A stretch of DNA of 64,000 bases from Bryoerythrophyllum caledonicum (lineage: Eukaryota; Streptophyta; Bryopsida; Pottiales; Pottiaceae). Below, in pieces: positions 19,081 to 54,100 of the stretch. Under the pieces are notes generated by a model. The model was not told the DNA's origin and searched no databases. It saw only the letters and a list, made by a program, of their open reading frames with translations. Position numbers and translations under genes: made by a program. The stretch covers positions 9,093,989-9,157,988 of the forward strand of contig OZ020518.1 in the NCBI GenBank assembly GCA_963971425.1, in the 5' to 3' direction. Position 1 is the first letter of the stretch. Each line of letters begins with the position of its first letter.

Positions 19081-19429
19081 GTAGATTGTTTAACCCAAAA
19101 ATCTTTAAATGAATGCATTATAGCTTTAAGTTTTGTTATAAAAGACATATTTTAAGCGATAATTAGAGATTAAATACTTAAAACTAGACGCTAGACCATC
19201 CTGGGAATGTATGTAGAATTAAGAGTGAAGCTTGGGTGTTTTGCGAGTGTGGATTTTAAGGTTTATAGACACGCATACATTTCTTTCCTTGTGATTTTAC
19301 AAATATCTATTTCCTATGGTAGGAGCCTTTACTCTCTATGTGGCCATTGAACCCTAGGGGGAGTCGGAGGATGTTTTTAAATATAAGCCGGTACTTCAGA
19401 TTTTGGAATAAATCAATTTCCTTTCATAT
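19081..19429. other. Non-coding stretch
   Basis: No supported feature. Confidence 0.4.
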
Positions 19430-19935
19430 CTGTGCAGTAGAGTGTCCTTTAGAAGAGCTTGGTGGACCAGGTTTTGTTATTTATTTTGGATTCACGGTTT
19501 AAAGATTAGTACCATTCTAGTAAAGAATGGGGAGGTTTGAAGTTTCACTAGCTCAATTTTTTTTGCTATATGTTTCCATCAACATTGAGATTTTCCATAC
19601 ATATACAGTATATTGCCTTCCTTGAAGTCAAAGATCTAAACCAAAGTCAAACATTTTCACACAATCGAACACACATGGGAAAGAAACATTAACTTTGGTA
19701 CACACCACATTGAGAATATGAGATCTTCATCTCTTCCACTTTTTGTTTTTTTACAAAAATATATCGTGAAACCCCAATTGTGAACCGTTTGGATTTTCAT
19801 TATAAAGCACACTGAGTTCACAAAATATCAAAATGTATAATGGCAATTTTTCAACCTTCACATCTTCTACAATTGTTTTATTTACGCTACACCCCTTTTC
19901 TACCCCTACAAATTAGTTCATTGGCAACTATTATC
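19430..19935 (+). repeat. R1 dispersed repeat, copy D (partial)
   Basis: Contains TTGGATTCACGGTT, an AACATTGAGATTTTCCATAC box, AGTCAAACATTTTCACAC, TTGGATTTTCATTATAAAGC and CTACACCCCTTTTCTACC in the R1 order, then stops before the terminal segment. Confidence 0.6.
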
Positions 19936-21400: not shown

Positions 21401-23170
21401 TCTCTGTTCCTCCTTAGAGAGTCTTCCGAGTGGTTTAAATGAATGACCGGAAGGCCACTGATCTTGTTTGTGTAAGTGGCCGGATTTTTCGCTGTCTTGT
21501 GACTTAAAGTGGCTAGACACACACTGCCTCGTAACTTAAGGTGGCTAGACACCCACTCTCCCTACTCTTCTAACCGGTGGATGATTGTTGCTACTGGACC
21601 CACACTCTCACAACATCCGGATGGTTATCCGGACGCGGTCATGCAGAGACGAGTACGGACTACAACGACATTCCGGTCAGTACTATGGTGGTTCTATTGA
21701 GTGAGCCTTACAGTTTGCAAGAGGATTTCCTTCTAGACATACACATCAGGCTTTTTTCCTATTGTGGGGGGAGATTCCGGCCTCAACCGGAATCCGGGTT
21801 CACATGGAGCTTCCGTGCCCTATAGAGTACCAGGCACACCTTTGCAATACGTTCTTCCCCTACTAGCTACCTCCGGGCCTTGGAGAATATTAGGGCTCTC
21901 TCTAAGCTCTTTTCATGCTCTTCCGGGCGTTCTTCTAATGCAAGTTTCAACCGGTTACCTCCAAAACAAATTCTCTAACACTCCTCACAAAGAATTTAAT
22001 CACCACACTAAAACCTCAATGGATCCGTTCTTCACAAAAAAACACTCAATACCACAAGTTTGAGATAAACAACATGACGGTATGTTGAAAACGTTCTTAG
22101 TGAGAGAAACAAGATTTTGGATCTAAGATCTGGATTTATCGCTCCTAAATCTTGAAGTATTTATGAAATTTCTTAGTCTAGGATTTGGTAGTCAGGTGCA
22201 ATTCGGAGCCCCATCGTTACTTGCTCTTAAACATAAGTAATTAAGAATTTCCTAATGCTAAGCCTAAATCTAACTAGGGGGTGTCTAGGCAATTCCTCCA
22301 CCACTACCCTTTCAGTGTCCGTTCCCCTAGGCGCTGCATCCGGCCGTTGGCTCTGAGAGCTGTTGGTGGCGACTTCGTCATCGAAACTGCCTTTGTTGGT
22401 GAGTCCACCGCCATCCCAACAAGTCTTCCGAAGAAGTCGCAGAAGCTCGCAGTTGGGCTAGGAGGATCCTCCAACAAGCGTCTTCCTATTGACGGCGTAG
22501 TCTTCCGGCGGCTGGCAGTCGGTGAGGTAGGCGTAAGCCAGAAGACAGGAGGAGTCCTCAGAGAGAGTCCTTTTGGAAGCATCTTCTCCAGTTTGAGGAT
22601 TCCCGTACTAGGCAAGGTGTAGTTACTCCAACTCATCGAAGAGACAAGTTCCAGAGTTGTCATAACCTCCTTATGCTTTCTGGAGCTCTCCGGATGTACT
22701 TCTAAAGGCCTTACCATGTCTGGAGTGGTCGTGACCCGCATTGGGGTAGTCATGTCGTTCGGTGCTTGGGTACCCCGATTCTCCGGTCCTTCCGGAGACA
22801 TGTTCCCAACCAGTTCTTGCCTTCGGACCCAAGTCTTCTCCATCTTCCGGCTGTGATTGTGGAGGAACCGGATGATCAGCACCCGGTTCAACTTATCTTC
22901 CTTCTCCAATCGCTCCGTGAAGATCAGAATTCGGTTGACGGTGTCGACCGGAAAGTCAAGCGCCGTCCGGACTTGTGCCAAAGCCTAAGCCGAGGCATTT
23001 GCCCGATCCTCTGCCTCCTTACGCATTGCCTACGCTTCAGCCAATGCTGTCTCCATTTGGTCCAGCTGTTCCTGGAGCTTGACTCGACTCCGAATGATCG
23101 CAGCTTGTTGGTCTTCCATTGTCTATAGCCGGAACGTGTTGTGCTTGAGCTCCGCGATCCGGGGATAGAC
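21400..23170 (-). mobile_element. Retroelement-like fossil with a coiled-coil ORF
   Basis: A CCGG-rich block unlike its AT-rich surroundings. On the minus strand between about 22,300 and 23,170 the frames encode Gln/Glu/Leu-rich heptad-like sequence (for example LQEQLDQMETALAEA), followed by Pro/Ser/Thr-rich sequence. This layout resembles accessory ORFs of plant LTR retroelements. The block at 60.0-62.3 kb has the same composition and layout. It is broken, with a few interruptions. The left part (21.4-22.3 kb) is non-coding and could be LTR or UTR. Family not determined. Confidence 0.35.
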
Positions 23171-25736
23171 AAAAGAGGAATGCCTTGAGAAGTACAAGGA
23201 ATTCAAGGCCCTTGCAGAGAAGCAATCGGAGCACAAGATCAAGATGTTTTGGTCGGAAAATGGTAGGGAGTTCATATATAAAGGCTTTCAAAGTTTCTTG
23301 AAGAAGCATGGCATTGAGAGACACATGTCAACACCTTACATGGTGGAGCAAAATGGAGTCGCATATTCCATAGTAGAAATGGCGAGGAGCATAATCCATG
23401 CACAACGCCTAAAACTTGAATGTTGGGCGGAAGCGGTGGTCAATGTGGTCTACATCTGCAATCAATGTCCAATGAGGGTTCTTGTCATCATCACACCCCA
23501 AGAATCTTGGAGTGGCCACAAGCCATGCATTGCGCATATGCGCGTGTTTGGATGCATTTCATATGCAATGGTGCCGGATACAAAGAGGGGTAAGCTTGAT
23601 GCAAAAGGCACAAAGTGTTTGTTTCTTGGCTATTGTGAGGACACTAAGGCATATCGGCTCATGTGCATTGAGATGAAGAACATCATTAAGAGCCGTGATG
23701 TAGTATTTGTTGAAGATACTACTAGTATTGGTGATGTTTTGGAGATGAGTCCAAGTGGGAGAATCGAGACCCCTAATTTGGTGGACAAATCTTTCAAACC
23801 ACCACCTTTGAGCAATCGCGATGGCAATACCAAAAAAGATGAGAGATTAGATGCCGAAGAAGAAGGTGTAGCTTCTTCATCAAGACCTTGACCAAGCGAT
23901 GAAGACTTGGGGAACTTACAAGAGCTGCGGTATCCAAGAAGAGAGCGTCGCCTGCCCAACAAATGGTAGAAGAGCCACATTTTGCCTCAACATGAGATAG
24001 AGCGTCATTGGAGGATCCTTTAAACATATGTGAGGCTATGCAATCAAAGGATGCGAGCAAGTGGGAGTCGGCCACGCAAGAGGAGTACGACTCGCTTATG
24101 GCAAATGGCACGTGGGAGTTGGATCTTCTTCCAAAGGATCGCAAAAGCATTGGATGCAAGTCGGTGTTCCGTACAAAGAAGGATGCTTTGAGTCGAGTGG
24201 TGCGCGACAAAGCAAGATTAGTTGTCAAAGGGTATTCTTAAGTTGGGGGAGTGGACTTTCTTGAGACGTTTGCTCCCGTTGCCAAGTTCACTACCATTCG
24301 GTGCATTCTTGTACTTGGGGTGGCCTCGGACTTGGAGATGTACCAAAGGGATGTGAAGACTGTATTCTAGAACGGTGAGTTGAAGGAGGACATTTAGATA
24401 GATCAATCGCAAGGTTTTGAACAAGAAGACTTGATCATCTTGTGTGCAAGCTCAAAAAGTCATTGTATGGACTAAAGCTATCACAAAGAGCATGGTACCA
24501 ACGCATTGATGCTTTCTTCACCAAGTAAGGTTTTACAAAGAGCCAAGCCGACCATTCCTTGTATATGAAGCAAGCGGGTGAGTCCTTGTTGATAGTCCTC
24601 ATGTATGTAGATGACTTGATCATCTTGGCTAGCCTTTTGGCTAAGTTGGCGTGGCTCAAAGTTAAGATCAACCCGGAGTTTGAGATGAACGATCTTGGTG
24701 TCAAAGTTAAAGTATTGTCTTCGTGTGGAATTTGTGAGAGACTACAAGGCAAGCACCATCACCATGAGCCAAAAGAAATACGTTAAAGAGGTGCTCAAGC
24801 GCTTCAACATGGAGGAGTGCAAGCCCATTGATACTCATTTTAATGTGAATGCCTAGTTGTTGAAGCTTTCGGAAAAATAATTTGAGGCAATTCAAGGTGA
24901 GATGGAAGGCGTGCCAGATAAAAGTGGAGTTGGATCATTGATATATGCCAAGGTAGGCACATGGCCTGATGTTGCATCCGCGGTGAGCAAGGCAAACCAA
25001 TTCATGTCTAGGACTGGTCGGACACATTGGAGTGCCTTGAAGCGCATCATGCGGTACTTGCAAGGTATTATAGACTACAAATTGTGCCTTTGTGGTAAGG
25101 ACATTCCTTTGAGGGAGTTTTGTAATGCAGATTGGGCCGGAGATGCGAACAAGCATCGTTTGACAACGAGGTATGTGTTATTTGTTGGAGTTCATGCCAT
25201 CTCGTGGAATTACAAGAGGCAACCAACCATTGCCTTGTCCACAACGAAGGCGGAGTACACACCACTCATGCATAAAACACATTGATGTGCAACATCACTT
25301 CATTCGCAAGAAGTTAGAGAGTGGCAAGATAAGCTTGAAGTATTGTCTAACGGAAGACATGGTGGCGGATGTGTTGACAAAAGCACTTGCAAAATAACGG
25401 CATCAAAGGTTAGCAAAGGCGATGGAATTGCGAAAAGGTAACTACTCGCAAAGTGGGAGTGTTAGAGATTAGAATAACTTGTTGTTATTATGATATCATA
25501 AATAGTTGAGGTATATTTAGAAAGGAAAGTAAAGGGGAGAAAATAGAGAGGTGAAACAAACTTGAAGTAGTCCCATATGTATTGGCAAAGGTTGTTATCA
25601 ATTGGTACTATAAATGAAGGTCTTCAAAAGAAGGCCATATCTCACTCCAAGCATTGTTTGTAACACTTTATGAATTTCATCTGCTTGTGCAATCATTTCT
25701 CTACTTCTTTTGAACCTCAAGAACAAGTATATGACA
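23171..25736 (+). mobile_element. Ty1/copia LTR retrotransposon fossil, 5'-truncated
   Basis: Parts in order: integrase core (about 23,190-23,760, with STPYMVEQNGV and FGCISYAMVP), linker, reverse transcriptase (about 24,000-24,860, with WESATQEEYDSLMANGTWEL and VLMYVDDLIIL), RNase H (about 24,930-25,290, with NADWAGDANKHR and LSTTKAEY), then ADVLTKALAK. A purine tract precedes the 3' LTR. Gag, protease, primer site and 5' LTR are missing; the left edge abuts the CCGG-rich block at about 23,170. The copy is clearly dead, with on the order of six to ten breaks. Integrase, RT and RNase H order identifies Ty1/copia. Confidence 0.9.
25460..25736 (+). repeat. 3' LTR of the copia fossil
   Basis: Starts TGTTAGAGATT directly after the purine tract AAAGTGGGAG. 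A TATA-like box (CTATAAATGA) lies at about 25,608. The right edge is placed near ...TATATGACA (25,725-25,736) and is approximate because no 5' LTR survives for comparison. Confidence 0.65.
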
Positions 25737-26211: not shown

Positions 26212-26759
26212 TGTTAAGCGGAGAACCAGGATTAGCTGACTCGGGTAGTATTTTTCTTTTTTGAAGCCGGTTGAGTTTTTGGGCTCTCTAGTGGATAAAC
26301 CTGACCAGATGGATGATTTCCTTCCTGGACAGTGTTTCATCCACTGGGCTGGCCGGATGAAACTTAGCTAGGCGGATGATTTCCGTCCTGACCAGTTTCA
26401 TCTGTCAATTGGATGAACCTGGGCAACTGGATGACTTCCATCCAGCCCAGTGTTCATCCGCCGGATGACTTCCATTAGGGTTTGGTGTACATGGAGGGGG
26501 AGCTTGGAGCTCTCTCTCTTTCTCTCTCTCTCTCACTTGGAACTTAGAGTTAGAGCTTAGACACAATTAGGGTTGCAAGAGTTTAGAGGTTCTTGAGGTT
26601 ACATTGAGTGGAAAAGACTTTGCCATGTAAAAACTATGACCTAGCCAATAAAATCCGACGTGATTTGAGGTTTTATGAGGAGTTTTGAGCAAATCAGGGT
26701 TTCTTAGGGTTTCTAGGGTTTATGTGAAAGTGAGTTTGTAGGTCAATCTCCCTTTAACA
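26212..26759 (+). repeat. 5' LTR of the gene-less LTR element
   Basis: 548 bp. The left half contains about three imperfect copies of a GGATGATTTCC..TTTCATCC unit. A CT-rich microsatellite precedes the right third. Confidence 0.9.
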
Positions 26760-27040
26760 TTGGCGACCATGCACAAGTTCGAATCATGTGGCTCTTGCTA
26801 CAAGGAGGCAACTAGGGTTTGAAGCTTTGAGATCTAGATCTAGGGTTTTGGAAGCTTGTTTGTGAAAATTTTGGTTGTTTTTGGATTGCATCCTAGGTTT
26901 AGAGTGTATCTCTACTCATTGCACTACTAGGGTTTTGTGGGTTTTTGCAAAAACCCCAACATTTGTATTTTTTGAGAAAATGCAAAATTAGGGTTTCTGG
27001 AGGTCTGAGAGCCGGCAGCCAGCAGTCTTGGACTAGTCCT

Positions 27041-27589: not shown

Positions 27590-28310
27590 GAGTCGAGACC
27601 CGGAGGCTTCCAGCTGCAGCCAGCCCGGAGTTCCAACCCCGCCATCTAATCACTTCTAGTGACACCCGGCGACCCGGAGGCTTCAAGCTGCAGCCAGCCC
27701 GGAGTCCCAACCCGGCCATCTGATCACTTCTAGTGACACCCGACGACCCGGAGGCTTCAAGCTGCAGCCAGCCCGGAGTCCCAATCCGGACATCCGAGCA
27801 CTTCCGGTGACACCCGGAGAGTCGAGACGTGGAGGCTTCCAGCTGCAGCCAGCCCGGAGTCCCAACCTGGCCATCTGATCACTTCTACTGACACCCGGCG
27901 ACCTGGAGGCTTCTAGCTGCAGCCAGCCCGGAGTCCCGACCCGGCCATCCGATTATTTCCAGTGACACCCGGAGACTAGGAGACCTCCCAGCTGAAATCA
28001 ACCCAGAGTTCCAACCCGGACATCCAAGCACTTCCGGTGACACCCGGAGGGCTTCCAGCTGCCGCCAACCCGGAGTCCCAACCCGGACATACAATCATTA
28101 GCAATGACACTCGGAGACCCGGAGGCCTTTCAGCTGCATTCCACCTGGAGTCCCAACTTGGACATCCGATCACTTTCGGTGACACCCGGAGACTCGACGA
28201 CACTCAAAGGTCAGAGGCCTTTAAGCTCCAACTCAACCCGGAGGTTCCAGACCGGATACCCGAACATGTTCGATGAACACTAGAGACCCGACAGTCTTCC
28301 AGCTGCAGTC
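27590..28310. repeat. Tandem array, about 74-bp unit, about 9-10 copies
   Basis: Unit landmarks are GACCCGGAGGCTTCCAGCTG, a CAGCCCGGAGTCCCAACCCG box and a TCACTTCYRGTGACACCCGG box. Starts recur at about 27,597, 27,671, 27,745, 27,823, 27,898, 27,974, 28,045, 28,117 and later. The period is not a multiple of three, so the array does not encode a repeated peptide in one frame. Confidence 0.85.
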
Positions 28311-29229: not shown

Positions 29230-29525
29230 TGTTAAGTGGAGAACTAAGATTAGCGGACCCAGGTAGTATTTTTCTTTTTTGAAGCCGGTTGAGTTTTTGG
29301 GCTCTCCAATCGATGAACCTGACCAGGCGGATGATTTCCTTCCTAGACAGTGTTTCATCCACTGGGCTGGCCGGATGAAACCTAGCTAGGCAAATGATTT
29401 CCGTCCTGTCCAGTTTCATCCGTCAGTCGGATGAACCTGGGCAACTAGATGACTTCCATCCAGCCTAGTGTTCATCCGCCGGATGACTTCCATTAGGGTT
29501 TGGTGTACATGGAGGGGGAGCTTGG

Positions 29526-29592
<67 letters not shown>

Positions 29593-29817
29593 ACTTGGAA
29601 CTTAGAGTTAGAGCTTAGACACAACTAGGGTTGTAAGAGTTTAGAGGTTTTTGAGGTTACATTGAGTGGAAAAGACTTTGCCATGTAAAAACTATGACCT
29701 AGCCAATAAAATCCGACGTGATTTGAGGTTTTATGAGGAGTTTTGAGCAAATCAGGGTTTCTTAGGGTTTCTATGGTTTATGTGAAAGTGAGTTTGTAGG
29801 TCAATCTCCCTTTAACA
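29230..29817 (+). repeat. 3' LTR of the gene-less LTR element
   Basis: 588 bp, about 40 bp longer than the 5' LTR because its CT microsatellite (about 29,529-29,592) is expanded. Otherwise collinear with the left copy. Confidence 0.9.
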
Positions 29818-29822
29818 TCACC

Positions 29823-30105: not shown

Positions 30106-31389
30106 TGTAGTTCTTATCTATTTAGGATTCCAACCAAAAGGATAGGGATTGAGCACTAGGGAGGAAATTTGCTACATGCAGAAGAATAGGTTGTTTCAAC
30201 TTAAAAAATTGGCCAACACTTTGGGCAAATTTTGGAGATTTAAATCTTTCTAAGACATTCATTTTGCATTTAATCTAATCACTTATTATATTAAACCTTA
30301 AGGCTAACCTCAATTCCCTATTTAGTTTATATTTCATTAAGGCTCCTATTTGATTTCTTCAAAATAATACTTGCCCATGTGCCATTTCATTGCTACCTCC
30401 AATCCACTTGGCTCCAATATTTTTTCCAATTCACTTGTAATAGCTTTTTATAAGAAGGAACTTGCAATAAGGCAATCTAAAAGAAGAAACTTGCAACAAG
30501 GCAATCTAGATGAAGGAACCAAGAATGTCAGAATGTGAGCAGTGAGCGATGAGCAGTGAGGGGTAAGCAATTTTTTTTTTCAGTTGGGCACCTTAGAACC
30601 ACAGATTTGGGGTGATCTACAAGAAACAATTTTACATTGTCACCTATTTCCATGGTATGAAAAAAGTTCAAAATGGGAGAAAATTTGATTAAAAAATCCA
30701 AAAATTATCTGTTTGGAGGATATTTGGATGAATGTAGATAGATGGATGAATGTAGATAGATGAATGTAGATAAATGATTGCTTAGCTTATAGTTTAAAGA
30801 ATATAACAACTTATAAAATATTAATAAAAGCTTTTTAGTCTCAGCTAGAACTAAGCAATTACATAGAATGCAATAATTTCTTCAAGTGATTTCAACACTG
30901 ATATTGGCAGTCTATAGCAGCTTTCTGATCAAGACCTCCGACTTTTGGTCGGAGCTAATGGTCGGAGCTAATTGGGTACCTAGTGGTAGAAATATGCTAA
31001 AGTTGCAACACAATTTGAAAATTCATAAGTGATTTGATTTTCATTGGAAAAACATGAAATCACTTGGGTTGAGAAAAAAACCTAATGTTCTTTCACTAAA
31101 AAAATATCTTAGAAATACTTCAGTTTTTAATTTGCCATTTTCTTTAAAGTGGTGGTCATGGGCCCAAAACTCTAGTTATATGAAGAGGGTAGAAGCCAAG
31201 ACAAACAGAGCTGAAAACAAACCAGCGAGTTGACATTAATTGACACAACATCTTCAGAACAAAAATTGCTTCTAACATATCCCTGATATTGATCTCTCAC
31301 AGTTGGAAATTGAAAAATTTTAACCTCTAAGGTACCGTGACAGTTTTACACCAAAAACACTTCAAAATTGTTGGATTCTAGTGCAATGA
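30106..31389. other. AT-rich non-coding stretch
   Basis: Contains short local duplications (AAGAAGGAACTTGCAA-type near 30,450-30,500; GATGAATGTAGATA near 30,730-30,770). No supported gene. Confidence 0.45.
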
Positions 31390-32000
31390 ATGAAGAAGGA
31401 AATAAAAACTTTTATTTCTAGTTTCGACTGTAGGATCTCAGTTAAAAATTATTAAGTAATATACTCCCAAAATTTCATAAACTTTGGCCACACGGATTGA
31501 AAGATTATAGTGTTTGAAGTCAAGCAAATGGTTAATTTTCTTCCCTGCGTTCAGTGGATCAACAGACTTTGACTTTGCTTGGTGTCAATTTTTTGCACTA
31601 CATTAGGTCTTAATCCATTACCATCTTGTTAAGCATGATGTTAGTTCCATATACACCAATTTTTACAGGTAGAAGATGAGTGTAGCATATTCAAAACAAC
31701 TGTGCAAGGAGTCGAGGTTTGAAATTTGCCAATTCACTTTTATTTTTTGTGAACTTAATATGTTTTCGATTGATAATCGGAATGGTCAATTAGAAGGTTT
31801 ACACCACATATTGTTGTGGAAAAAATAAAAAGTGAAAAATATAAAGATATCTAGGTTTTATGTGGAAAAGAAGAAGTTTTTTTGGTACCTTGCCCGACAA
31901 TGAGTGACAATGTGTGAAAATGTTTGACTTGGGTTGGTATGCTATTTTTTACTAAAGACAAGAACTTTTTTTGGACAGTTTAAAGGGAAATAATATTACT
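31390..32000 (-). repeat. R1 dispersed repeat, copy E
   Basis: R1 landmarks in reverse-complement order, from the terminal segment (about 31,440) to the ACATTTTCACAC box (about 31,920). Read on the minus strand it has GGGCAAGGTACC followed by AACTTCTTCTTTTCC, an uninterrupted version of the Tc1 insertion site (TA at 31,886-31,887). Confidence 0.65.
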
Positions 32001-32280
32001 TGCGAGTATTAACAATCTCACATTCAATAGATTGTCCTAGCAAAAGTTTTTAGAGGTGCCCGAGGTGCCTGCTTTCCCCATTTGAAATTCAAACCCCTAT
32101 AACTTTTTCATCAAATGTCCAATTTAGGGGAAAATTTGTTTTTCCACTACGGTCTTGGTATTGCCTTTCTCTAGTAAATATTTCAAAGAAGAATGTTGGA
32201 AATTGACACCGTAGGAACCTGACCGAACTTTCAAAAAGCCCATTTTTGACACTTGGTCCTTTAGGGGTTAAAAAACCTAC

Positions 32281-34545
32281 CGAGGGGCACCTCTGTACCA
32301 AGGAACGCCCTGAGGGCAAATCCTTTTTTTTATAAAAACACAAAAAAAAAAAAAAATAATAATAATAATAATAATAATAATTTTTAAAATTACATTAAAA
32401 AAACTCAATAAGAAAGAAAACCAGCCGAGGGGCATCTTGGTACCGAGGAGCGCCCTAAGGGCGAAACCAAGGGAAACAAAAAAAAATACAAAAAAAATTA
32501 AATTTAAAAAAAAAAAAAATTGTCCCCCATTAAGAAATTTTCTCTTGTAGGGGTTATCCAAATTGCCCATTTGGCACTCCAAACTTCTCCATAAATTTGA
32601 ATACAAAAATTCTTGCTTCCACTACAATTTTACATAATTTTACAATTCTTGCTTCCACTACAATTTGAGTGAGGGGAAAAATGGCACCTTGGTACCAAAG
32701 TGTCCATTTTGCACTCCAAACTTTTATGTTATTTTGAACACTAAAATTCTTGCTTCCACTACAACTTTACATAATTTGAGTGAGGGGAAAGATGGCACCT
32801 TGGTACCAAAGTGCCCCTTACGTACTCTCAGTGTTTTTGTAATATTGGACATTGAAATTTCTACGTTGAAATGATGGGTTAAGTACGGTTCCTTGGACTA
32901 TATTTTAAGGACTATTACTTATTGTTCTTGGAATTTGTAATCTACATTTTTCTAATTGTTCTCCATGAGCTTTTTGGTACCAAGGAGAAGTTTCAATACG
33001 CCTTGATTTAGTCATCACATCCTTTTTTAAAATTTGAATCTACGTTTTATTGGTTGTTCTTTATGAGGCTTCTTGGTATGGAGGAGCAGTCTCCAAGGAG
33101 TTTGTTTTTGTTCTTCCTCTATGCCTTTCTTAGGTTTCCAAACTCTACACTTTGTTCGTTGTATCTTACGAGCCTCCTCGATACCGAGGAACATTATCCA
33201 TGGTCATTTTCTTTGGTTTTTTCTTCATGTCTTTCTTAGGATCCTAACATCTACACTTTGGTCGTTGTATTATTATAAGCCTCCTGAGCACCGAGGAGCA
33301 GTCTCCATAGAATTCTTTTTCTGTTCTTTCCTCATGATTTTCTCAGAACCTAATATATACACTCAGGTGGATTGCTTGTTTCTAAGTTCTGCATTCTGTT
33401 GGACGTAGGCTAATAGACTCCTGAGCACCAAGGTGCGGTTCTGTAATGTGTATTTTCAATGTTTTAGACGTAAGTGCGGTATTTTGGGCTTTTTTTCATG
33501 TTTTCTCCTTAAATCTTGTACATTTTTTAGTTCACATCTCTAGCTGCAATAGAAATATGCTCCTTGATATCGAGGAGCGATTCTCTGGGCTATTTTGATT
33601 TTTATTCTCTACTTTGCTTCTTGCCCAAATCATGGTTTTGCACTTTTCAAGTGCAACCTAAATAGGCACCTCAGTACCGAGGTGTGGTTCCTAGGGCTAT
33701 TTGTTTTTTATTCTTCACTTCACGACTAGCCAAAATCATGTTTTTGCATTCCTCATGTGCAACCTAAATAGGCTTCTTGGCATCGAGGGGTCGTTCTCAG
33801 GGCTCTTGGTTTTCTGCTCTTTACTTCAGTGTGAGCTCATATCTTCCTTTGCGCACTTATAAGCGAGGACCTAAATAGACTCATCGGCGCCAATGGAGAC
33901 AGCTGCTTGGTACCGACGAGGCTCATAAGATACAACCAATAAAGTGTAGAGTTCAGGAAACTAAGAATGGCATGGAGGAAAAACCCAAAAGAAACACAAT
34001 GGAGACTGCTCCTCAGTTCTAAGAAGGCTCATGAAAAAAAACCACTAAAATGTAGATTCAAGAATCAAAAGACATGGAGGAAAAACCAAAAAAATTGCCC
34101 ATTGGAACTGCTCTTTAGTACTAATTTCCACTTTGTTACCGAGGTGTCATTTTTTCCCCTCACTAAAATTATGTATATTTGTAGTAGAGGCAAGAATTTT
34201 AGTAGAAGTTTGGAGTGCCAAATGGATACTTTGGTATCGAGGTGCCATTTCCCCCTCATTGAATATTTGTAAAGTTCACTGATTTCTTTTGTGTGAAAAA
34301 TAGTAGGATTTTTTTTGGTGAAAAAATGCAACTACAATAATGAACAGCGCTCCATATAGGCGTTTTGGTATCAAAGTGCCTATTTTTCCTTAATCAAATA
34401 TTTGTAAAGTTCACTAATTTCTTTTGTGTGGAAAATGGTAGGATTTCTTTTTAGTTAAAAAACGCAACAAGTATGCATAGTGCTCCATATGGGCACTTTG
34501 GTACCAAGGTGCCTATTTTCCAATCATTGCATATTTGTAAAGTTG
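32281..34545. repeat. Foldback-like inverted array of about 110-bp units with a KpnI palindrome
   Basis: At least 15 copies of a motif near GGCACCTYGGTACCGAGGTGC recur every 90-140 bp. Unit type A (TGGCACTCCAAACTT...AAATTCTTGC) runs forward at about 32,550-32,890 and inverted at about 34,130-34,260. Unit type B (GAGCAGTCTCC...CTACACTTTG..GGTTGTAT) runs forward at about 33,060-33,300 and inverted at about 33,890-34,110. A third class (about 140 bp) fills 34,260-34,540. The whole is an imperfect inverted repeat centred near 33.5-33.8 kb, like the tandem-built arms of foldback transposons. No transposase seen; frames inside are incidental. An ATA microsatellite lies at about 32,356-32,382. Confidence 0.7.
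32795..32814. repeat. Near-perfect 20-nt palindrome, representative copy
   Basis: Differs at one base from the perfect palindrome GCACCTTGGTACCAAGGTGC. Similar copies lie at 32,684-32,703 and 34,493-34,512. Confidence 0.8.
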
Positions 34546-36859: not shown

Positions 36860-37159
36860 ATTCAAAACAAAATAATTTTCTTCTGAAAATTTTATGTTTG
36901 ATTGTCCCTAGGATGAGCTATTTGAATGTATTAATTTTATTTATTTGGATTTCTGGTTCAAAATTTAGTAGCACTCAAAGTGAAAATGGTGAGCCCGACC
37001 ATCTAAAAACTTTTCCTAGAATTTTCTATTGACATTGAGGTTTTTCATACTCATGAAGAATATTACCTTCTTCAAAGATTTCCAAAAAAAATGATGTCTT
37101 TATTGTGAAATCGCATTTTAATCGAAATAAAATATTTTCACCCTTTTTTGGGCAATGTA
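36860..37159 (+). repeat. R1 dispersed repeat, copy F, left part
   Basis: R1 landmarks (GATTGTCCCTAGGATGAGCT, TTTGGATTTCTGGTT, CTATTGACATTGAGG) end at the TA where the Tc1-like element begins. The copy continues at 40,868. Confidence 0.65.
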
Positions 37160-38104
37160 CAGTAGGGTGACATTCAAATTGGCGTTTGGGCAATTCCAGG
37201 GATGGTGTCCCACACTGCTGCCAACTTTGACGCCCTCCACAGGGCTGAAAAATTGTTCTTTTACCCTGAAATTTTGGGAACAGCATCACCTCTATGTTAA
37301 AAACATGCATACCAAATTTCAAGTCCAGAGGACTTATAAAACAAAAGATATTAAAAATTAACCACCATGGGGTAGCTGTGAGAAAAGTTTCTCAACCGCC
37401 AACTTTGACACCATCCCAAGGATTGAGGAAATTTTTTTTGCCCATGGAATTTTTGGAGTGAGAACACCTTTATGTTGATTACATGTGTGGAAATTTTCAA
37501 GTCCAATAAATGCACAAAAAAAATCACATCCCAAATCTACCAACATGTGTAATTGTGAGAAAAAAAGGGAAAAACCATTTTACTACTTCCAACTTTGACA
37601 CCCTCCCTAGGATTGAGGGTTTGTTATTTCAACATGAAATTTTTGACACATGGTAACCTTTATGTTGATAACATGTGGAAAAATTTTCAAGGCCAAAAAA
37701 TGTATTCAAAAGAAGATATTCAAAATCTACTAACATGGGGGTTAGTTGTGAGAAAAGTTTCACAGCTGCCCACTTTGACACCCTCCCAAGAATTCAAAAA
37801 AAATTATTTGTCCATGAAATTTTGGGTATGAAGTCACCTTCACGTCAAATACAAGTGTGGAAAATTTCAAAATCCAAAAGATTTACACAAAAAACATATA
37901 CCAAGTCTACCAACATGTATTGTTGTGACAAACAAAGGGGAAAGTTTACCACTACTTCCAACTTCAACACCCTTCCTAGGATTGAGTTTTTGTTGATACA
38001 TAATGAAATTTTGGCCACAAGATCATCTCTATATTGGTAACATATGAGATAGATTTCAAAGCCAAAAGATGTATATACAAAAAAAAAAATTCCATATCTA
38101 CCAA
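37160..38104 (+). repeat. Left TIR, built from five degenerate units of about 185 bp
   Basis: A CAACTTTGACACCCTCCCTA box followed by a GGATTGAGG-type box recurs at about 37,227, 37,401, 37,590, 37,766 and 37,957, each with a downstream ATGAAATTTTGG segment and a CTACCAACATG segment. The same series appears inverted in the right TIR. Confidence 0.9.
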
Positions 38105-38399
38105 TGTTTGTAACAATGAGAAACTATATTGAAGGGGCATATTGAGAATGTCAAATTGTCTTTGACACCTCGTACTCTTCATTGTTTTTATTCATGTGAC
38201 TAAGCTACCAAACATAAATGCATCTTGAAAAGATCAATGAAATCTACATGTAGAATTGCAGAGTTGTTTTGTGTAGAAGAATCCACTTGTCATAAGGTTT
38301 GGTGTGCATTGTGCACGTATAACGAGTTTTCTCCTCCAAATATCTGTTGAGCACTATGTAAAGGAAATGTTGTGTGTATTTTGTCATGTGATTTGTAAT

Positions 38400-38780
38400 A
38401 GAGTGAATGTTGAGATGGTATTGAGAGTGAATGTTGAGATGGTATTGAGTGGACATATTAGATATGGGCTGAGTGTTGTTGACTGATTGAGTAGACAAAT
38501 CACATATGGGCTGATCCATTGAGTAGGCATATCACATATGGGCTGATCCATTGAGTGGGCATATCACATATGGGCTGATTTATTGAGTGGATATATTTTT
38601 TTTTTGTTGAGTGTTGTTGACTAGTTTACTGAGTGTTGACGAATCACATGTGGCATGAGTATGTCCAAGAGTATTTTTTGGTTCACTCAATTGATGCACA
38701 TGCCATGGTTATCATCTAATGCACATGCCATGGTTATCACCTAATGCACATGCCAATGTGAGTGTTATGTTGTTGATTGA
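38400..38780. repeat. Short tandem repeats inside the Tc1-like element
   Basis: Two copies of GAGTGAATGTTGAGATGGTA, three to four copies of a CATATGGGCTGATCCATTGA unit, then about three copies of AATGCACATGCCATGGTTAT. They lie between the left TIR and the transposase, in the place of a promoter or leader. Confidence 0.8.
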
Positions 38781-38921
38781 TTTATTTAGTGCACATGCCA
38801 TAAGCTGAGTCCTTTGTGTTTACTGAATTATATAATCCAATTGCCATAGGTTGAGTGTTATATTGATTACTTATTGAAGAGCATTTAGTATTGTATCAAC
38901 ATCATAAAAAATAGTCTATAA

Positions 38922-39927
38922 TGGCAATTTCAGATGAAATCCGTGCTCGCATTATAGGTTTGAGTGAGGGAGGAAATACAGGAGTTCAAATGCAGCCATT
39001 ACTGGAGTTTCTGTTAGAACAGTTCAGAGGTTAGTAAAAACGTTTAAAGAAGATGGAACTTATAAGCGCAAACCTTGCGGTGGAAGTCACGCTGAAAAAC
39101 TTAGTGAGAGAGATGTGAATAATATTGTGCGTTATGCAAAAACTCATCGTCGTTCCTCGGTCTCAGAGATTACTAATATGTGCCGTACTCAAGTGTGTAG
39201 ACGTACTATTCAAAGGGTATTATATAAAAGTAGTATTTTTAGTCGAATTGCAGTCAAAAAACCTTTCTTGACATCCCATCACATGTCTCAACGGTTAGCT
39301 TTTGCTCAGAAGTACCATGGATGGAGTCCAAAAGAGTCGGAGCATATTGTTTGGACAGATGAATCTACTTTTGAGATTGGAAAAAGTTCTCGGCAAATTC
39401 ATGTTTGGAGAAGTGCATATGAGCGTTATTCATCAAGTTGTATAGTTCCTAGTTTTAAAAGTGGACGGACATCTTTGATGATTTGGGGTGCATTTGCTGG
39501 AGGACAAAAGTCACAACTTGTCTTTATGCCAAAAACTCAACGTTCTGCTAAAGATTTTATTGAAGTGGTCTACGATGGCAAATTGATTCATTTCTTGAGT
39601 AGACTTCCAGAAGGAGTGCTAATGGAAGATGGTGCACCTGTTCATCGTAGCAAAACATGTGAAGAATGGAGACAAACCAACCAACTCGAAAAGCTCAATT
39701 GGCCTGCAAACTCTCCCGATCTCAATCCAATCGAGAATGTCTGGAGGATGCTAAAAGATGTTGTGCAACATGGCAAGGAATGCCCTAGAAACTTAGAAGT
39801 GATGAAGGTGGTTCTTGAAAAAGAGTGGAATTTGGTTAGTGGTACAAAGCTCCTTCAACTATGTCATTCTATGCCCTCAAGGTTACAAGCGGTGATTGAT
39901 GCTAATGGAGGACATACACGTTGGTAG
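38922..39927 (+). pseudogene. Tc1-like DD34E transposase, one frameshift near the N-terminus
   Basis: Cut-and-paste transposase, about 335 codons, the usual Tc1 length. It starts ATG at 38,922 (MAISDEIRARIIGLSEGGNT). A shift at about 38,988-38,991, consistent with one missing base, moves the reading into the frame with ITGVSVRTVQRLVKTF, a paired-like helix-turn-helix. The frame is then open to 39,927. Catalytic residues are visible: Asp in HIVWTDES (39,358-39,360), Asp in LMEDGAPVH (39,628-39,630) and Glu in NPIENVW (39,733-39,735), with 34 residues between the last two, hence DD34E. Plant mariner-like elements are generally DD39D, so this is the Tc1 rather than the usual plant lineage. The stop codon lies inside the right TIR. 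Confidence 0.93.
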
Positions 39928-40867
39928 ATATGGAATAATTTTTTTTTGTATATACATCTTTTGGCTTTGAAATCTATCTCATATGTTACCAATATAGAGA
40001 TGATCTTGTGGCCAAAATTTCATTATGTATCAACAAAAACTCAATCCTAGGAAGGGTGTTGAAGTTGGAAGTAGTGGTAAACTTTCCCCTTTGTTTGTCA
40101 CAACAATACATGTTGGTAGACTTGGTATATGTTTTTTGTGTACATATTTTGGATTTTGAAATTTTCCACACTTGTATTTGACGTGAAGGTGACTTCATAC
40201 CCAAAATTTCATGGACAAATAAATTTTTTTGAATTCTTGGGAGGGTGTCAAAGTGGGCAGCTGTGAAACTTTTCTCACAACTAACCCCCATGTTAGTAGA
40301 TTTTGAATATCTTCTTTTGAATTCATTTTTTGGCCTTGAAAATTTTTCCACATGTTATCAACATAAAGGTTACCATGTGTCAAAAATTTCATGTTGAAAT
40401 AACAAACCCTCAATCCTAGGGAGGGTGTCAAAGTTGGAAGTAGTAAAATGGTTTTTCCCTTTTTTTCTCACAATTACACATGTTGGTAGATTTGGGATGT
40501 GATTTTTTTTGTGCATTTATTGGACTTGAAAATTTCCACACATGTAATCAACATAAAGGTGTTCTCACTCCAAAAATTCCATGGGCAAAAAAAAATTTCC
40601 TCAATCCTTGGGATGGTGTCAAAGTTGGCGGTTGAGAAACTTTTCTCACAGCTACCCCATGGTGGTTAATTTTTAATATCTTTTGTTTTATAAGTCCTCT
40701 GGACTTGAAATTTGGTATGCATGTTTTTAACATAGAGGTGATGCTGTTCCCAAAATTTCAGGGTAAAAGAACAATTTTTCAGCCCTGTGGAGGGCGTCAA
40801 AGTTGGCAGCAGTGTGGGACACCATCCCTGGAATTGCCCAAACGCCAATTTGAATGTCACCCTACTG
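39921..40867 (-). repeat. Right TIR of the Tc1-like element
   Basis: Reverse complement of 37,160-38,104 with very few differences. Its inner edge covers the last transposase codon (Trp) and the stop codon (TAG at 39,925-39,927). Confidence 0.9.
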
Positions 40868-41390
40868 TACAATAAAACTTCTTCTTTTCCTCATAAAACT
40901 TACAAATCTTTATATTTTTCACTTTTTATTTTGTTCTACTAACAGATGTGCTCTACATCCTTTTATTGACCGATTGGATAAGCATTCTAAAAGATATTTA
41001 GTTCACAAGTAATTGTAACGTGAATTGGCCATTCTTAAACCTCCACTCGTTGCTCAAGTTTTTTGAAGATGCTACACCCCTCTTTTACCTCTAGAAATTG
41101 GTGTATAAGGAATGGACATCATGCTTAAGACAATAGTAAAAGATTTGAAATTTTTGTACTTTAAACATTTCATAGAAAGTGAAGTCAATGTCTACAAACC
41201 CGCAAAGAAAATCAACCATTGTTTTCACGTTAGATACTATAATCTATCAATCGGTGCGGTGGATTGCAACTAAAAGAGTATGGCATGTTCATATAGAAGT
41301 CTTTTCTAAGATCTTATGGCTGAAAATCCGAACTTAACTTTAAAATGTAATTGCATTGCCTCTTTTTGACAGTGATGGTTTTGGACTATT
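40868..41390 (+). repeat. R1 dispersed repeat, copy F, right part
   Basis: Resumes at AATAAAACTTCTTCTTTTCC and carries the remaining landmarks (ATTGGATAAGCATTCTAAAAG, GCTACACCCCTCTTTTACC, CTAGAAATTGGTGTATAAGG) to the terminal segment at about 41,330. Confidence 0.65.
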
Positions 41391-44309: not shown

Positions 44310-44650
44310 TCTTCATGACACCGCATGGATTGATAGATTATAGTGTGTAAAGTAAAAACAATGGTTCATTTCTTCCATCGTTGACTGGTACTTTAGACTT
44401 TGACTTGCTTTCTATAAATTTTTAACACTCCAAACGTTCGTAATTTTATAATGTTTTGTGAAGCCTGATGTTAATTCTATATACACCAATTTGTAGAGGT
44501 AGAAAACGGGAGTAGCATATTCAGATAAATTTGTGCAAGTAATGGAGGTTCAAACAGGGCCAATTTACATTTCATTTTTTTGTGCACCAAATATCTTTTA
44601 GAATGTTTATCCAAACAATCAATGAGAAGATTTATAACACATCTTGTACA
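44310..44650 (-). repeat. R1 dispersed repeat, copy H (partial)
   Basis: Inverted R1 landmarks, including ATATACACCAATTTGTAGAGG and the GAATGTTTATCCAA box, matching copy F at about 40,970-41,120 in reverse. Confidence 0.6.
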
Positions 44651-45562
44651 AGAGGAAACTAGATGTGACAAATTTAAAAAGGTGTACATTTATAATTGTC
44701 CCTCTCTCTCTCTCTCGTTCTCTTCTCCTTCTAGTATAGTTGAGAGTTTAATTTTTATTTGGTTGTCCGTCTCTTCCTTTTGTCTTTTTAAAAAATAATT
44801 GGGATCTTCCTCTCCAAACTCACAGCTTCAAAGTTACTAAATATCTAAATCAATAATTGTCCCTAAAGCCTAAACCCTCTTCCTTTGCTTCTAATTTAAT
44901 TAAGACTTCATTTATAATCGTCCCTCTCTCCCTTTTGCCTCCCAATATTTTTTTGTTTTTTGAAGAACCTTCTTTATCATTATTTATAATTTTTTGCATT
45001 TTTCTTCACTCCTTCTAATTAAAAGAAAATGGAATTCTTTTGCCTTAGATCCTCTTCTTCTAATTTAACTAAGATATTTTTGAACGATTGTCCATCTCTC
45101 CCTTCTCCACTCACTCCATCTAAATTAAATGAGATCTATATTTATAAATGTTCCTCTCTCCCTCCCTCCCTTCTCTTTCCGTTTTAGTTCAGATCTGGAA
45201 TTTTGTAGATTGTCACTCTCTTCATTTTGTCCTCTTCATTTATTTATTTGTTTTTTTCCATGTTTGTTTTTTAATTCCTCCCGACTCCTTTAATCCCTAA
45301 TGGTCCAAGCCATTTTAGATTAATCTCTACTTCGTTGATTAAAAACTTCAAAGAAGAACTTATTGAAATTGTAACCATAGGATTTCCTTCTAAAATCATA
45401 TGAGATAATGTGGTCAAAATTTCGTGAATTTTGATTGTACGGATTAAAAGCTAATTGTTTGTTAAACTATACACTTCTGTACCTCTGAGGTACACTTGGG
45501 CTAATAGGGGTTAAGTTGACTAAAAGAAATGAAAGCCCTTGTGCCTTTCATTACTTTTATTG
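44651..45562. other. Pyrimidine-rich non-coding stretch
   Basis: Repeated CCCTCTCTC runs alternating with CTTC/TTTAATT phrases roughly every 90-130 bases (about 44,700, 44,925, 45,095, 45,160) suggest an old tandem repeat. No gene supported. Confidence 0.4.
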
Positions 45563-45762
45563 NNNNNNNNNNNNNNNNNNNNNNNNNNNNNNNNNNNNNN
45601 NNNNNNNNNNNNNNNNNNNNNNNNNNNNNNNNNNNNNNNNNNNNNNNNNNNNNNNNNNNNNNNNNNNNNNNNNNNNNNNNNNNNNNNNNNNNNNNNNNNN
45701 NNNNNNNNNNNNNNNNNNNNNNNNNNNNNNNNNNNNNNNNNNNNNNNNNNNNNNNNNNNNNN
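45563..45762. other. Assembly gap, 200 N
   Basis: Run of unknown bases; frames spanning it are meaningless. Confidence 1.
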
Positions 45763-48196: not shown

Positions 48197-51100
48197 TCAT
48201 TCATTTATTTTTGTTCCTAAACACGATTCGAAGAAGGCACAATCACTTAATTCGCGTTGGCCTTTAAGAGGAGGCTTTTTCTCATTGGCTTTCAATAAAT
48301 TTTTCTCTCCTTCTAGCAATCTTTGTTGTGCCCTTTCTAGTGCAAACCTATCCCATGCCGGTGTTTCATCATCCAGGAATGGAATAAGTTTACAAATTCG
48401 TTCTTTAATAAGTTCATTCATAAGATGTTGTTCCTTTTGAACTTGCTCTTCATAATCATGAAAGCCAACTCGCATGAACATTCGCATTTCAGTAAGGATA
48501 TGAAGCCACTTGAAGCAATACTCCAACATGTCTTGATTTCCAATTCTTGATTCAAGGCTGATCTCATTCAAAGGTGGATTTGCTGTATTGATTTGTTCTA
48601 GTAACGACTCCATCTTCTGAAAGAGACATGAATACAAAAACTCATCCATAACTACTTAAATCTACATGTTCATTTACACTAATTCAAAATTATTTTTGAA
48701 ATATAATAAAGAAGTCAAGTTGCAATTCAAAAAGGTAGGAATACCATTCCCGCGACAGACTTATAGTGATGTCTTGTAAATGCACTTATGTCTAACTCCT
48801 TAGTTTTTATTTCAATCATCTTGTACTTGATTGTGGAACAAAACATTACCCAAATGGTAGCAAGTGGTTGGTGATATGAACACAATCACAAAGTTTTATT
48901 TCATTAAAAAATTATAATAAATTATTTTTCAAACTATTAACGCTTCTCTAGTGTGAATATATATATATATATGTTTTGTAGAGATCACCATTACAAATGT
49001 GTTGTGTAGCTTAAACCAACTAGAATAGTGTAATTTTCCATATTAGCACATAACTCCCCTTCTTTCTTAAAATGATGCCATGTAAATTGAGAAAAATAGA
49101 TTATGAATTATGATATCATTTTTAGGTTAAAAAAGGTATAAAGTAATGTTGGTCTTTTTGACTAACGTGACTAATGAGTGTTAAGGATAGTGTTGTTACT
49201 TGAGTCACCAAGACCTAGATAGGGCACTACATGTCAAATAAAATTTAAATACAAGAAAATAGAATAAAGAACATAACAAAACTTACACCAGCCTCAACAG
49301 CTTGAGGATCTTCTTCTATTCTTGCGGCTGTTTCAGCTGCTTTTTCCAAACGCTCTTGCTCGTATTTTTCATAGTAATTATTCATCAACAATTCAGCCAT
49401 GGATCGACCAAACTCCACGGGCATTCCTTCCATCACTTCTTCTGTGTGGTCCGTAATTCCATGTAATAATTTGTATACCACATTATGAAGTAACATGGTT
49501 TGATGTGGTGGAATTTGGACCAATTCTTTCAAAGTAACTAGCTCAGATTGAAAATGTTGTTTGATCCTTTGGCTCATGGTGCTCCCTTTTATTCCTGTAA
49601 TTCAAGAATTTTGGAAAAGATAATAATCAAACAAAGTCGTTATTCATTAAATCTCATGAAAGGTATTGTCAATGTTGACTACATTAAGGATTTACCAAGA
49701 TACATGTTTCATAATTGAATTATTATAATTAGTTTAAGATGTTTGAAATTTTTTGTTTGTATAAAATCACTTTTGGATAAAAAGATGTTGAAGTTATTTA
49801 CAAAGGTTTGGAATGACTTGGGCTATCTACTAAATACATTTGTTATGGAATTGCAAATTATAAAGGTATTGATGTGGAGTATTCGTAAAATGAAGCAAAG
49901 ATGCCAAGAACCTTGACCTTTTTTTCTTATTCTCAACTTTCTATAACTAGCTAAAATAGGAAGATAGCTAAAATTCTTGGTACGATATGATCTATTCCTC
50001 TTCATCCTAAAAGATAGCTATAGCTTAGTTCTAATTTAAGCTTAAAAGTCTCAAAGCTCTTTAATACTCAATCTCTAAAGGGCCAAGGCATTTCAGAGGA
50101 ATCTCTACTCCATTGATTGTAAACTACATAAGTAAACTCTTATACTATAGTTACACTTGGTCCTTTAGGTGTTAATAAGGATAGACCACCAAGCTCCTTC
50201 ATTGATCTAAGAGCTATTAAGAGTAAATAAATACACTATTAAAATAAATGGACGGGGTGTCTTATTAAAATTGTGGGAAAGTTTATGGATAGGTAACCTC
50301 AATCATGTTATGCAAAAAGCATTAAAATATTTATGAGGATGTAAAGTACCAGCTATAATGCTTGAAAATGATCCATCCCATGTCCATGGAGGTTCTTCTT
50401 TGATGGGCTCTTCTCGAATGTTCAATGGTACTTTGGGTGGCGGAGCTTTTTCCTTTGCCGGGGCTTTTCCGGTTGCCAGGGCACGTTCACTTTCAATTGG
50501 AGGTAGAAATTCCCATGCTTTGACAACAGTTGCAAATGCCTCCAATTGTTGGTACAATGATGGAACATAGTATATGGGTGGTTCCATTCCCAAGTTCTTT
50601 TGAAGGAAATTAAATGCAACACTAGAAAACATGTATTCACCAACGCATTGAACCTCTTGTGTTGCTTTAGAAGCTTTTGCAGCCCGACTTAATGTATTAT
50701 TAAAGAACTCATTGATACTGCTCATTCTTTCACGGTGATACAATGTCCTTGATAATTTATCTCGTAACCTTCTGAATAACAATATAATGCATGTTAGTGT
50801 ATTTCATGAGATAAATTGAAAGCAATGCGTGTAAGTTTCTTCACTTGAGCAATTGTCACAAAACAAATAAAAGACGGAGAAAACAACAAAGCATATAAAA
50901 ATTTGATTGTTGTTAGTTCATCTATGATGAGATAACAATACTTATCTTCCTTTTGATGATGGAGTTTAGATGTACTTTTTCACACATGTCAACTTTCAAG
51001 AGTGAATAGGTGACGTACGTAAAATGGTCTTCAGAGAAGGCCACACCTTTGAGGAATATGGGATCTAAGGTCCAATTTTTTGGTAGCCGAGGTAGAATAC

Positions 51101-54100
51101 GTAATATCCAACTCTCCAAAAATACTCCGGGAACATTAGATTTGAAGTGGAAGTGAAATGTTTGTTTTCCGTGTGAATGTATGCTTCCAGAACCATTTAT
51201 CAAACTAAAAACTCGGCAATCCGTAATGTGCAGACCTACTTCAAGATAAAGATAGAAATATAATATGATTTGAAAATACTGCACAACTAATTGATGTTTA
51301 TGACAAAAAATGAAAGTAGTTTTTTTTGCACAAATCATTACATTTATCAAAAAAAATCCTATATTGATATTATAAACCATTATTTGAAGAATGATCCATG
51401 TTGGTGGCCTCAAATTCCCTCTAGAACTACAAAATGCCATGCTTGTAAATTAAAATTTGTAAAATTAATAAATAAGAACTATTAAGGATATTTTGTATCT
51501 TACCATAATTTAGAATGTAATGAAATCAAGAATGAAAAGGTCTTGATTGCTAAAATTAGTGAGAATTGAATGCAAAAATTCCATTGTTTCACAAATAAAA
51601 TGAAGATACAACACACAAAAATGGATAGAGTTCATATTGTCTTCTAAATTTTCTTCACTACTAGAAGGTAACTTAAAGAATGCACATAGCACAATAAAAT
51701 AAATTAGAGGGCGTGCATTAATTTAAATTATTGCAAAACTCTTATTTTGAATATTCACCTTATCAAAACTAAAATTAATTAAATCATTTAGTAAAAAATG
51801 AAAAATGGATTGTCTAATCCATTTTTCATTTTTTACTACAAATTACTATTTCATTTTTCCTCCAAATTATTTTTCATATTTGCCACTTTGTTTTCTTATC
51901 TTGTTGCTAATTCTCTTTGGTTTATTTGTAGAGTAAAGCACGTACCTAAATGAAGTTTTGGGGTGGTGACTAAAGTTTCTACTGGTCTTCGTTCCCATTT
52001 ATAAAATAAAACCGTCTCACCAAAATTCTCCAGCACAACTGCTTTTGTGCTTTTTTCTCCTGAAACACAATTTTGAACTCAATGTCAGATCCACCAAATT
52101 CATAAAGAAAGATGAACTCCAGCCTTGGAAGGAGTCTCCCATGAACAAAGTTTTTGTTCATTTCTCCACTGTGGCCATGTCCACAAGTTATTAGTTAGTG
52201 GAACCATCACATGCACTTAGATTTCACGGTTCTTGTAAGACACTAGGTTCAACCTTCATTCTTGCACAAGATACATGCCATTTTTGTTGGCCATTAGCAA
52301 TGTTCATAAAGTTTAGAACTTGTTGATTAGGTGATGAAATTGCAACTTTGGTTGTAAGTTGCAAATATACGGTAACTTTTACTATCAAAGGACCACTGGA
52401 GCTACATAGATGTTGATGTTGTGTGTGATCTTAATATATGGAGAACAACAAACATCATCAATGCCTATTTAGATTTACACCCAAATCTTTAGCTGGTTTG
52501 TAGAAATCTTTATGACATTAGAGTTATCTTGAAGATTAGAGGTTGTCCACAAAGAAAGGAGGAATTTGGATGTGAGTCACAAAAGTAAGGATATTTTACT
52601 ATTCAAAAAAACCATCAAAGCTACTATGATAAGTGTTGACCATATCTTGAGTATTGTGTAATCTTATCGGATGGAGACCAATAAACAGCATTAATGTCTA
52701 ATCAAACGCACAACCAAACTTCCAACAACTTTGCTAATATCTCTATTGAGTAGGACATGAAAAACATTTGTGTGCTTACAACATGAATTACATTCTTACC
52801 AACTTGATTTACAAAGAATTGGTAGGTCAAACTAATCATGGCAGCAGGTCCAGGAACTTTTGTAATCTTCTGAACCAAACAAACATTATAGAATTTCAAA
52901 AATCAGACTTCAGTAACGTGAAGTTCCAACATGTGACCGCCCACTCTTTCATGATGGATAATCTAGCAGTTTAACTTCAAGTCGACCAGACTGGACTATG
53001 GCAATACTATGGGATACAATCAGAGAATACAATCTTTTACATCATGGCCATCCTTATAATCTTTCCCACTTAAAATAACAAGATATAATCTCAATGCAAT
53101 CCACTTAGAGCCAATTCATTAGTTAAACAAAAACAAGCAAAGAAAAAGTTGAGAGTTGAGCATATATCAAGAGTTTAGTCAGTCATTCACTCTTGGTCAA
53201 GAGTTAACACTCTCCTGTATTATCAATCCTAATCTCTCTCTTCTTCTTCAATGAAGGAAAAATAATGTCGTTTCTCACTCAATTGTGCAGCTCTTCACTC
53301 CTTAAGAATGTGCAAAATATCACTTGTTGCTCTCTTGTGTCACTCTTCACTCATCTTCTTTGCAAATTAATGAAAAAATAAGTAACAAACTATATGTTTG
53401 AGCTCCTAGTGCTAAAATTATAAGACACTTAGAATTGGTTTCCATGACCTCTTCTAGACTATCATAATGCAATGCAATGGTTTGGAGGTGAATATGGAAA
53501 GTTATACCCATCAATAGACAACCACAAAAGGTGTACACATGATAGCTGACCTTGTCGTCAGACTTGGCGGTAATTGGTGGACATAGTGGAGGAGGCAGAG
53601 CCGGCAATGGTGGCTTCATACGCTTTCCAAGGATCTATAAGGCAAAAGAATTTACACAAAACAGAATCATGGTAGAAACATCTTAGAGTGAGTATCCATC
53701 GTCACGTCTTGCCTTTAACATTGAGTTGTGAAGGTGTCTAAGAAGCTATTATATAGAAGATATTCCTCTTGTTTTGAGACACATAGTTGAACATGCACTT
53801 TTTGCTTACTTTTTAGTTTCAGATCTACTTACGTTGTACATAATTATAGAATGGAAAGTAATAAAAGAAATAGTAAGTGATTGGTAGATATATGTCAACA
53901 AGAATAAATTGGTCTACTAACAAGTGTATAGGTCTACTAGGATGTACTTCAATAATTCATGAAAAGTTCTGAAGAATTAATTTGAAGACAACTTCAAGCT
54001 TCTAAATCAAAGTTTTATTTATGAAACTTTAAGCAATACGATAAACATCTAAGAATAGTTAGGACTAACTATATTGGCTATCTTATGAGAAACCTTTGCA

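Follow-up and report, generated by a model that had tools for sequence, protein, structure and literature searches.

The locus considered here raises the question whether a segment with long inverted arms, situated at positions 37160–40867 of the window (that is, of the whole 64,000-nucleotide stretch of DNA that was analysed), is a Tc1-like transposon residing in a plant genome, and how arms built of repeated units could have arisen and may be used. The segment is confirmed as a genuine Tc1-like element, slightly broken, in a likely plant chromosome.

The boundaries of the element are exact and enclose 3708 bp. The left junction reads ...GGCAATG-TA-CAGTAGGG and the right junction CCCTACTG-TA-CAATAAAA. 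The termini are CAGT...ACTG, and CAGTAGGGTGACATTCAAATTGG is read inward from either end. The TA dinucleotides flanking both sides, at 37158–37159 on the left and at 40868–40869 on the right, form the target duplication. The TA flanks and CAGT termini proposed in the sequence-only reading are thus borne out at these exact boundaries.

The flanks of the element (36869–37157 on the left and 40870–41261 on the right, both on the plus strand) belong to a dispersed host repeat that is present at several further places in the window. In the empty-site test, the flanks were joined without the element and with one TA, and matched against the rest of the window. Eight places matched, three of which span the junction (32054–31488 on the minus strand, 11188–11819 and 12537–12983 on the plus strand), and all three continue across it; the other five match only to the right of the junction. 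The spanning sites have small alignment gaps near the junction (10 nt in the one on the minus strand). A single TA stands at the junction in two of them, and the third has no TA there. The spanning copies share approximately 67–73% identity with the flanks (the value varies with the scoring) and are therefore diverged paralogues, not alleles. Three diverged copies of the host repeat preserve the site without the element, which establishes the insertion. The repeat itself was seen at 6851–7228, 11186–13149, 19417–19943, 31313–32054, 36869–37141, 40870–41261 and 44319–44691, with about 66–75% identity between the places and in both orientations, and the Tc1-like element lies inside one of them. 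No copy or fragment of the element was found elsewhere in the window at E ≤ 1e-3, and it is known from one copy only; the tRNA and Rfam scans were both empty.

The transposase gene lies on the plus strand between the arms. It is preceded by a leader (38136–38920) with short tandem repeats at 38400–38449, 38486–38588 and 38694–38755. The frame of the likely start codon, the ATG at 38921, stops after 37 codons (38921–39034); by resemblance, this piece would be the start of the N-terminal helix-turn-helix. The remaining 319 codons are open in another frame (38968–39927), which contains HTH_Tnp_Tc3_2 at about 39121–39315 (Pfam, 5.3e-14) and DDE_3 at about 39346–39777 (1.6e-15). The catalytic codons start at 39358 (D), 39628 (D) and 39733 (E); 34 residues separate the second D from the E, thus the DD34E triad is present, as is an SPDLNPIE motif. 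The best match in the PDB is Sleeping Beauty (E 1.1e-27), followed by Tc3 (4.6e-4), and a two-row profile already containing Sleeping Beauty matched Mos1 at 1e-4 and SETMAR at 0.07. The Tc1-type DD34E transposase suggested from the letters alone is therefore upheld by DDE_3, the Sleeping Beauty match and the 34-residue spacing.

A tree was built from 11 rows and 102 columns covering the C-terminal ~100 residues, with Tc1, Minos, impala and plant rows outside the set. There, the transposase and Sleeping Beauty form a pair (86/84); Mos1 and Hsmar1 lie next to this pair, and the seven bacterial rows, which we call IS630-like, stand apart. The support is moderate, the fork is not strong, and the branch of the window sequence is long. 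The scan of genome contigs confirmed at least 95 places, of which at least 80 loci were kept; among the matches listed all were prokaryotic, with 25–43% identity over the best segment. Plasmids yielded two Rhodococcus matches at 32.8%, one annotated as IS630 and one carrying no annotation, and the scan of viral contigs gave no relative. The AlphaFold single-sequence model had a mean pLDDT of 37.4, and no fold search was based on it.

Given the triad, the homology to HTH_Tnp_Tc3_2 and DDE_3, the TA duplication and the CAGT...ACTG ends, the element is Tc1-like (DD34E). Foldback-like elements and some MULEs typically have long arms built of repeats, which might suggest that an element of that kind, or a plant DD39D mariner-like element, has been misread as Tc1. 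We consider the chance of this practically negligible in view of the 34 residues from D to E, SPDLNPIE, DDE_3, Sleeping Beauty as the best match, the TA target and the CAGT ends. Two specific identities were tried and rejected. PlantMar is described in the available text of PMC7325037 by DD39D and short TIRs, against DD34E and arms of about 945 bp here, and for Galileo and the P superfamily the THAP domain is absent among the six Pfam families found for the transposase at E ≤ 0.01.

The break in the start frame had been overlooked in the earlier reading. The copy as assembled cannot encode a complete transposase, and hence is not autonomous by that measure; this bears on autonomy, not on membership in the family. 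The scan for a programmed frameshift at 38941–39060 gave one slippery heptamer, at 39043, past the stop of the first frame at 39034, and none in the overlap of the frames. Because 319 open codons are far beyond the maximum of 131 observed in 2000 mononucleotide shuffles, the gene probably lost its continuity only recently, or else the break is a sequence error.

The arms are about 945 bp long. The left arm occupies 37160–38104 on the plus strand, and the right arm, its inverted copy, 39920–40867 on the minus strand, with an approximate inner edge that coincides with the stop codon of the transposase. Their alignment, the ragged inner edge included, contains 946 identities, six mismatches and four gap columns; the last few columns are the ragged edge, and in the outer ~540 columns there is no substitution and a single 1-nt indel in a poly-T run. 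Each arm carries five units, every one with the box CCAACTTTGACACCCTCC or a near copy of it. In the left arm the boxes start at 37221, 37399, 37589, 37769 and 37958, and the units, all on the plus strand, were delimited as U1 (37211–37388), U2 (37389–37578), U3 (37579–37758), U4 (37759–37947) and U5 (37948–38135). The first four are 178, 190, 180 and 189 bp long; the end of U5 is not fixed by a following unit and was set by the script, its last ~30 nt lying outside the stretch shared with the right arm. The ten pairs of units are 71–80% identical over aligned positions. The lengths alternate between about 180 and 190 bp, and the TRF period is 369 bp; growth of the array thus seems to have proceeded two units at a time, and its appearance is that of a two-unit higher-order repeat, not of a simple 185-bp one. 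Of the earlier description, the near-identical ~945-bp TIRs of five units stand, and the 185-bp unit would give way to this alternation. The predicted RNA structure of one unit, U1, is unremarkable (z −1.4).

While units within an arm differ by 20–29%, the two arms differ by approximately 1%. This near-identity had been taken to imply recent movement. However, cut-and-paste transposition moves both arms together without resetting them, and by this established logic the identity of the arms dates their last homogenisation, not the insertion; the element shows why arm identity must not be taken as insertion age. The near-identical arms together with units only 71–80% alike point to copying from arm to arm. 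As to its direction, U5 of the left arm seems to continue in register for about 20 nt past the arm edge, with a score of 43 against 30.7 ± 5.2 (76 of 5000 random stretches score as high), and at the same position of the right arm the score is 34, reached by 1477 of 5000; when gaps were allowed in the alignment, the U5 tail did not stand out significantly (355 of 2000). The shared stretch ends at the transposase stop in the right arm while U5 in the left arm appears to run on, which suggests that the left arm was copied onto the right one.

The alikeness of the arms could also have been produced in assembly, if a single arm had been read and then used for both ends. Such an artefact is conceivable, since short reads cope badly with long inverted repeats and the 200 N at 45563–45762, a scaffold gap, make the contig a scaffold. 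Further, all six mismatches between the arms are transversions, albeit six are few, and decay of methylated plant DNA favours transitions. On the other hand, the arms differ at several places, indels among them, and join different inner sequences, and the TA flanks at both outer ends fit one host repeat. We regard the artefact as unlikely.

The outermost 55 bp of the element contain two copies of the most conserved box of the unit, both facing opposite to the units. Terminal box 1 (37164–37185, minus strand) is a gapped copy of the unit box, and terminal box 2 (37191–37209, minus strand) is CAATTCCAGGGATGGTGTC; their mirror images, box 2 and then box 1, occupy 40818–40863 on the plus strand at the right end, with coordinates given by symmetry, as the arms are identical here. 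The match was scored as the sum of local scores against the five inverted unit boxes, which, the units being interrelated, makes it one line of evidence and not five, and the test was designed after the match had been noticed. The 55-bp terminus scores 115. Dinucleotide shuffles average 75.5 ± 9.6, with 2 of 2000 reaching that score, and 55-mers taken elsewhere in the window average 63.2 ± 9.4, with 0 of 2000 reaching it; against unit boxes in the same orientation it scores 65. Taken separately, positions 1–28 of the element, with box 1, score 92 against a shuffle mean of 62.8 (reached by 6 of 1000), and positions 26–55, with box 2, score 110 against 63.8 (0 of 1000).

Is the box, then, a site for the transposase? 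It has the highest mean conservation in the unit (0.90, in 20-column windows taken every 10), and its inverted copies sit at the very terminus, which lends some weight to the binding-site reading. That reading is weakened by the fact that invariant columns are not significantly more frequent in the box than elsewhere in the unit (16 of 32 versus 49 of 145, p = 0.11). Hence the unit box is a possible candidate for a transposase-binding site. The same spread of conservation over the whole unit is what would be expected if the arrays were passive, formed by satellite-like duplication and by recruitment of neighbouring sequence, with no role in binding and only the outermost ~55 bp being of importance. 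In Galileo the arms vary by tandem repeats and by uptake of the end of the ORF (available text of PMC4168063), and the arm edge here likewise meets an ORF end. Passive arrays do not predict two copies of the most conserved stretch of the unit at the terminus, unless the array arose from the end sequence. We hold passive arrays to be somewhat less probable than not, and this account overlaps our preferred explanation in all but the binding step.

The explanation that we prefer, and hold to be fairly probable, is that of a DD34E cut-and-paste element inserted at a TA in an old dispersed host repeat, its continuous frame being lost since then, or in the assembly. Transposition would be of the standard Tc1 kind, the transposase binding the arms, cutting both ends and joining them at a TA. 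The arms would have grown as a ~185-bp unit was duplicated, two units at a time, and would have been equalised later, one being copied onto the other by gene conversion or by template switching during gap repair. Finally, and this is the most speculative step, the box common to the terminus and to all units might be the transposase-binding site, so that each arm would carry several accessory sites, as with the direct repeats of Bari; those of Sleeping Beauty are likewise accessory sites. If the unit box is indeed bound, the family would test the number of accessory sites that a Tc1 transposase uses. A bolder version, which we put forward as doubtful, is a plant Tc1-like lineage in which every arm has a pair of terminal boxes and, facing the other way, five unit boxes, hence up to seven putative binding sites of mixed orientation at each end. 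Its arms would be kept identical by repeated arm-to-arm copying and, being long, would form a strong hairpin if read through, which would tie transposition to silencing.

The residence of the element in a plant depends on the neighbouring sequence. Outside the element there are 182 ORFs with 68 or more residues, and the Pfam scan covered 116 chosen from these. Kinesin matches were obtained in three of the 116, two of them at 1035–1418 and 1715–2008 on the minus strand; the former is nearest in the PDB to the kinesin-13 proteins Klp10A and KIF2, and we take this kinesin-13 sequence to resemble that of land plants. On the other side of the element, the ORF at 50925–51449 (minus strand) matches MYCBPAP at 1.5e-6, with 27.9 bits against the Pfam cut-off of 24.5. 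MYCBPAP is a complex partner of MYCBP-1, and the counterpart of MYCBP-1 in Chlamydomonas, FAP174, is found in the central pair of the flagellum (available text of PMC4901443). In the region 48200–51449 this ORF is followed on the same strand (minus) by two long ORFs, which lack any Pfam match and any convincing counterpart in the PDB. The cilia-related gene is a helpful hint as to the host, since motile-cilia genes, if the host is a plant, would point to swimming sperm, as in a moss, a lycophyte, a fern, a cycad or Ginkgo.

From this content the host is likely a plant. The identity of the host rests on domain content, which leaves room for the view that the contig is not plant DNA or that the element is a contaminant. 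The element, however, is embedded in a host repeat that recurs to its left and to its right, and the kinesin-13-like and MYCBPAP-like ORFs bracket it on the same scaffold; we hold this view to be very unlikely. Hence residence in the host chromosome, as the sequence-only reading had it, is sustained both by the empty sites and by these ORFs on either side.

The window contains other repeats and mobile sequences. A second, older fold-back structure is situated at 32558–34263; its inverted arms pair 32974–33201 with 33893–34124 (74%) and 32665–32813 with 34129–34263 (78%), and overlap arrays of ~106-bp units. It does not convincingly resemble the Tc1-like element (best E 0.026), and the ORFs scanned there gave no Pfam match. 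Two direct repeats of about 550–590 bp, at 26212–26760 and 29230–29818, share 89% identity and may represent the LTRs of a degenerate retroelement; the 3 kb that separate them include tandem repeats of a GC-rich 74-bp unit at 27597–28193. A fragment of a Copia-type polyprotein occupies 23169–25282, with SH3_retrovirus and rve at 23169–23888; RVT_2, also Copia-type, was matched in two scanned ORFs of the window, and RVT_1 at 14930–15970 on the minus strand is a match to a LINE-type reverse transcriptase.

In plants, Tc1-like elements are rarely described in the literature compared, and the well-described ones have short ends. The contrast drawn at first, that plant elements are DD39D and a plant Tc1 would be new, does not hold: DD34E Tc1-like elements with CAGT ends and TA duplications were published from moss in 2014, together with Tc1-like sequences, mostly fragments, from nine angiosperms (Liu and Yang 2014, available text of PMC4054914), and archaeplastid sequences are mentioned within the Tc1 family in a 2020 phylogeny (available text of PMC7325037). 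Among the papers listed on ferns, gymnosperms and moss, judged by title, there was no report of plant Tc1-like elements besides PMC4054914. Among the closest known systems are PpTc1 and PpTc2 of Physcomitrella, which share with our element the plant host, DD34E, CAGT...ACTG ends, TA duplications and a single transposase gene. They are 1,584 and 1,709 bp long with 33-bp TIRs, against 3,708 bp and five-unit arms of ~945 bp here, a comparison made by description only (available text of PMC4054914).

Sleeping Beauty has the IR/DR organisation of arms, and resembles our element, along with Bari and Minos, as a Tc1-like element with long arms. Tc1 TIRs are about 30 bp, reaching several hundred bp in Minos and ~700 bp in the ciliate Tec elements (PMC7325037), and the LIR type of Bari2 and Bari3 has arms of ~250 nt with three 18-nt direct repeats that mediate transposase binding (PMC4877112; available text of both). 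Compared with Bari, the arms here are about four times longer, the units are of ~185 bp instead of 18 nt, and the unit boxes face opposite to the terminal boxes. The Tec elements share DD34E and very long TIRs; they differ in the ciliate host and in having three ORFs, one for a recombinase, and the available text of PMC7325037 makes no mention of arms built of units.

Judged by title and the start of the abstract, the literature search yielded no Tc1-like element with arms of tandem units. The novelty, within the literature searched, is thus the architecture of the arms, ~945 bp made of five diverged units, plant Tc1-like elements being already known. Galileo of the P superfamily likewise has long arms, which gained length through tandem repeats and through incorporation of the transposase ORF end (available text of PMC4168063). 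Its THAP transposase is unrelated, and it resembles our element in the growth of the arms at most, being no relative. Our element shows that array arms are not confined to the superfamily of Galileo but exist among Tc1-like elements as well.
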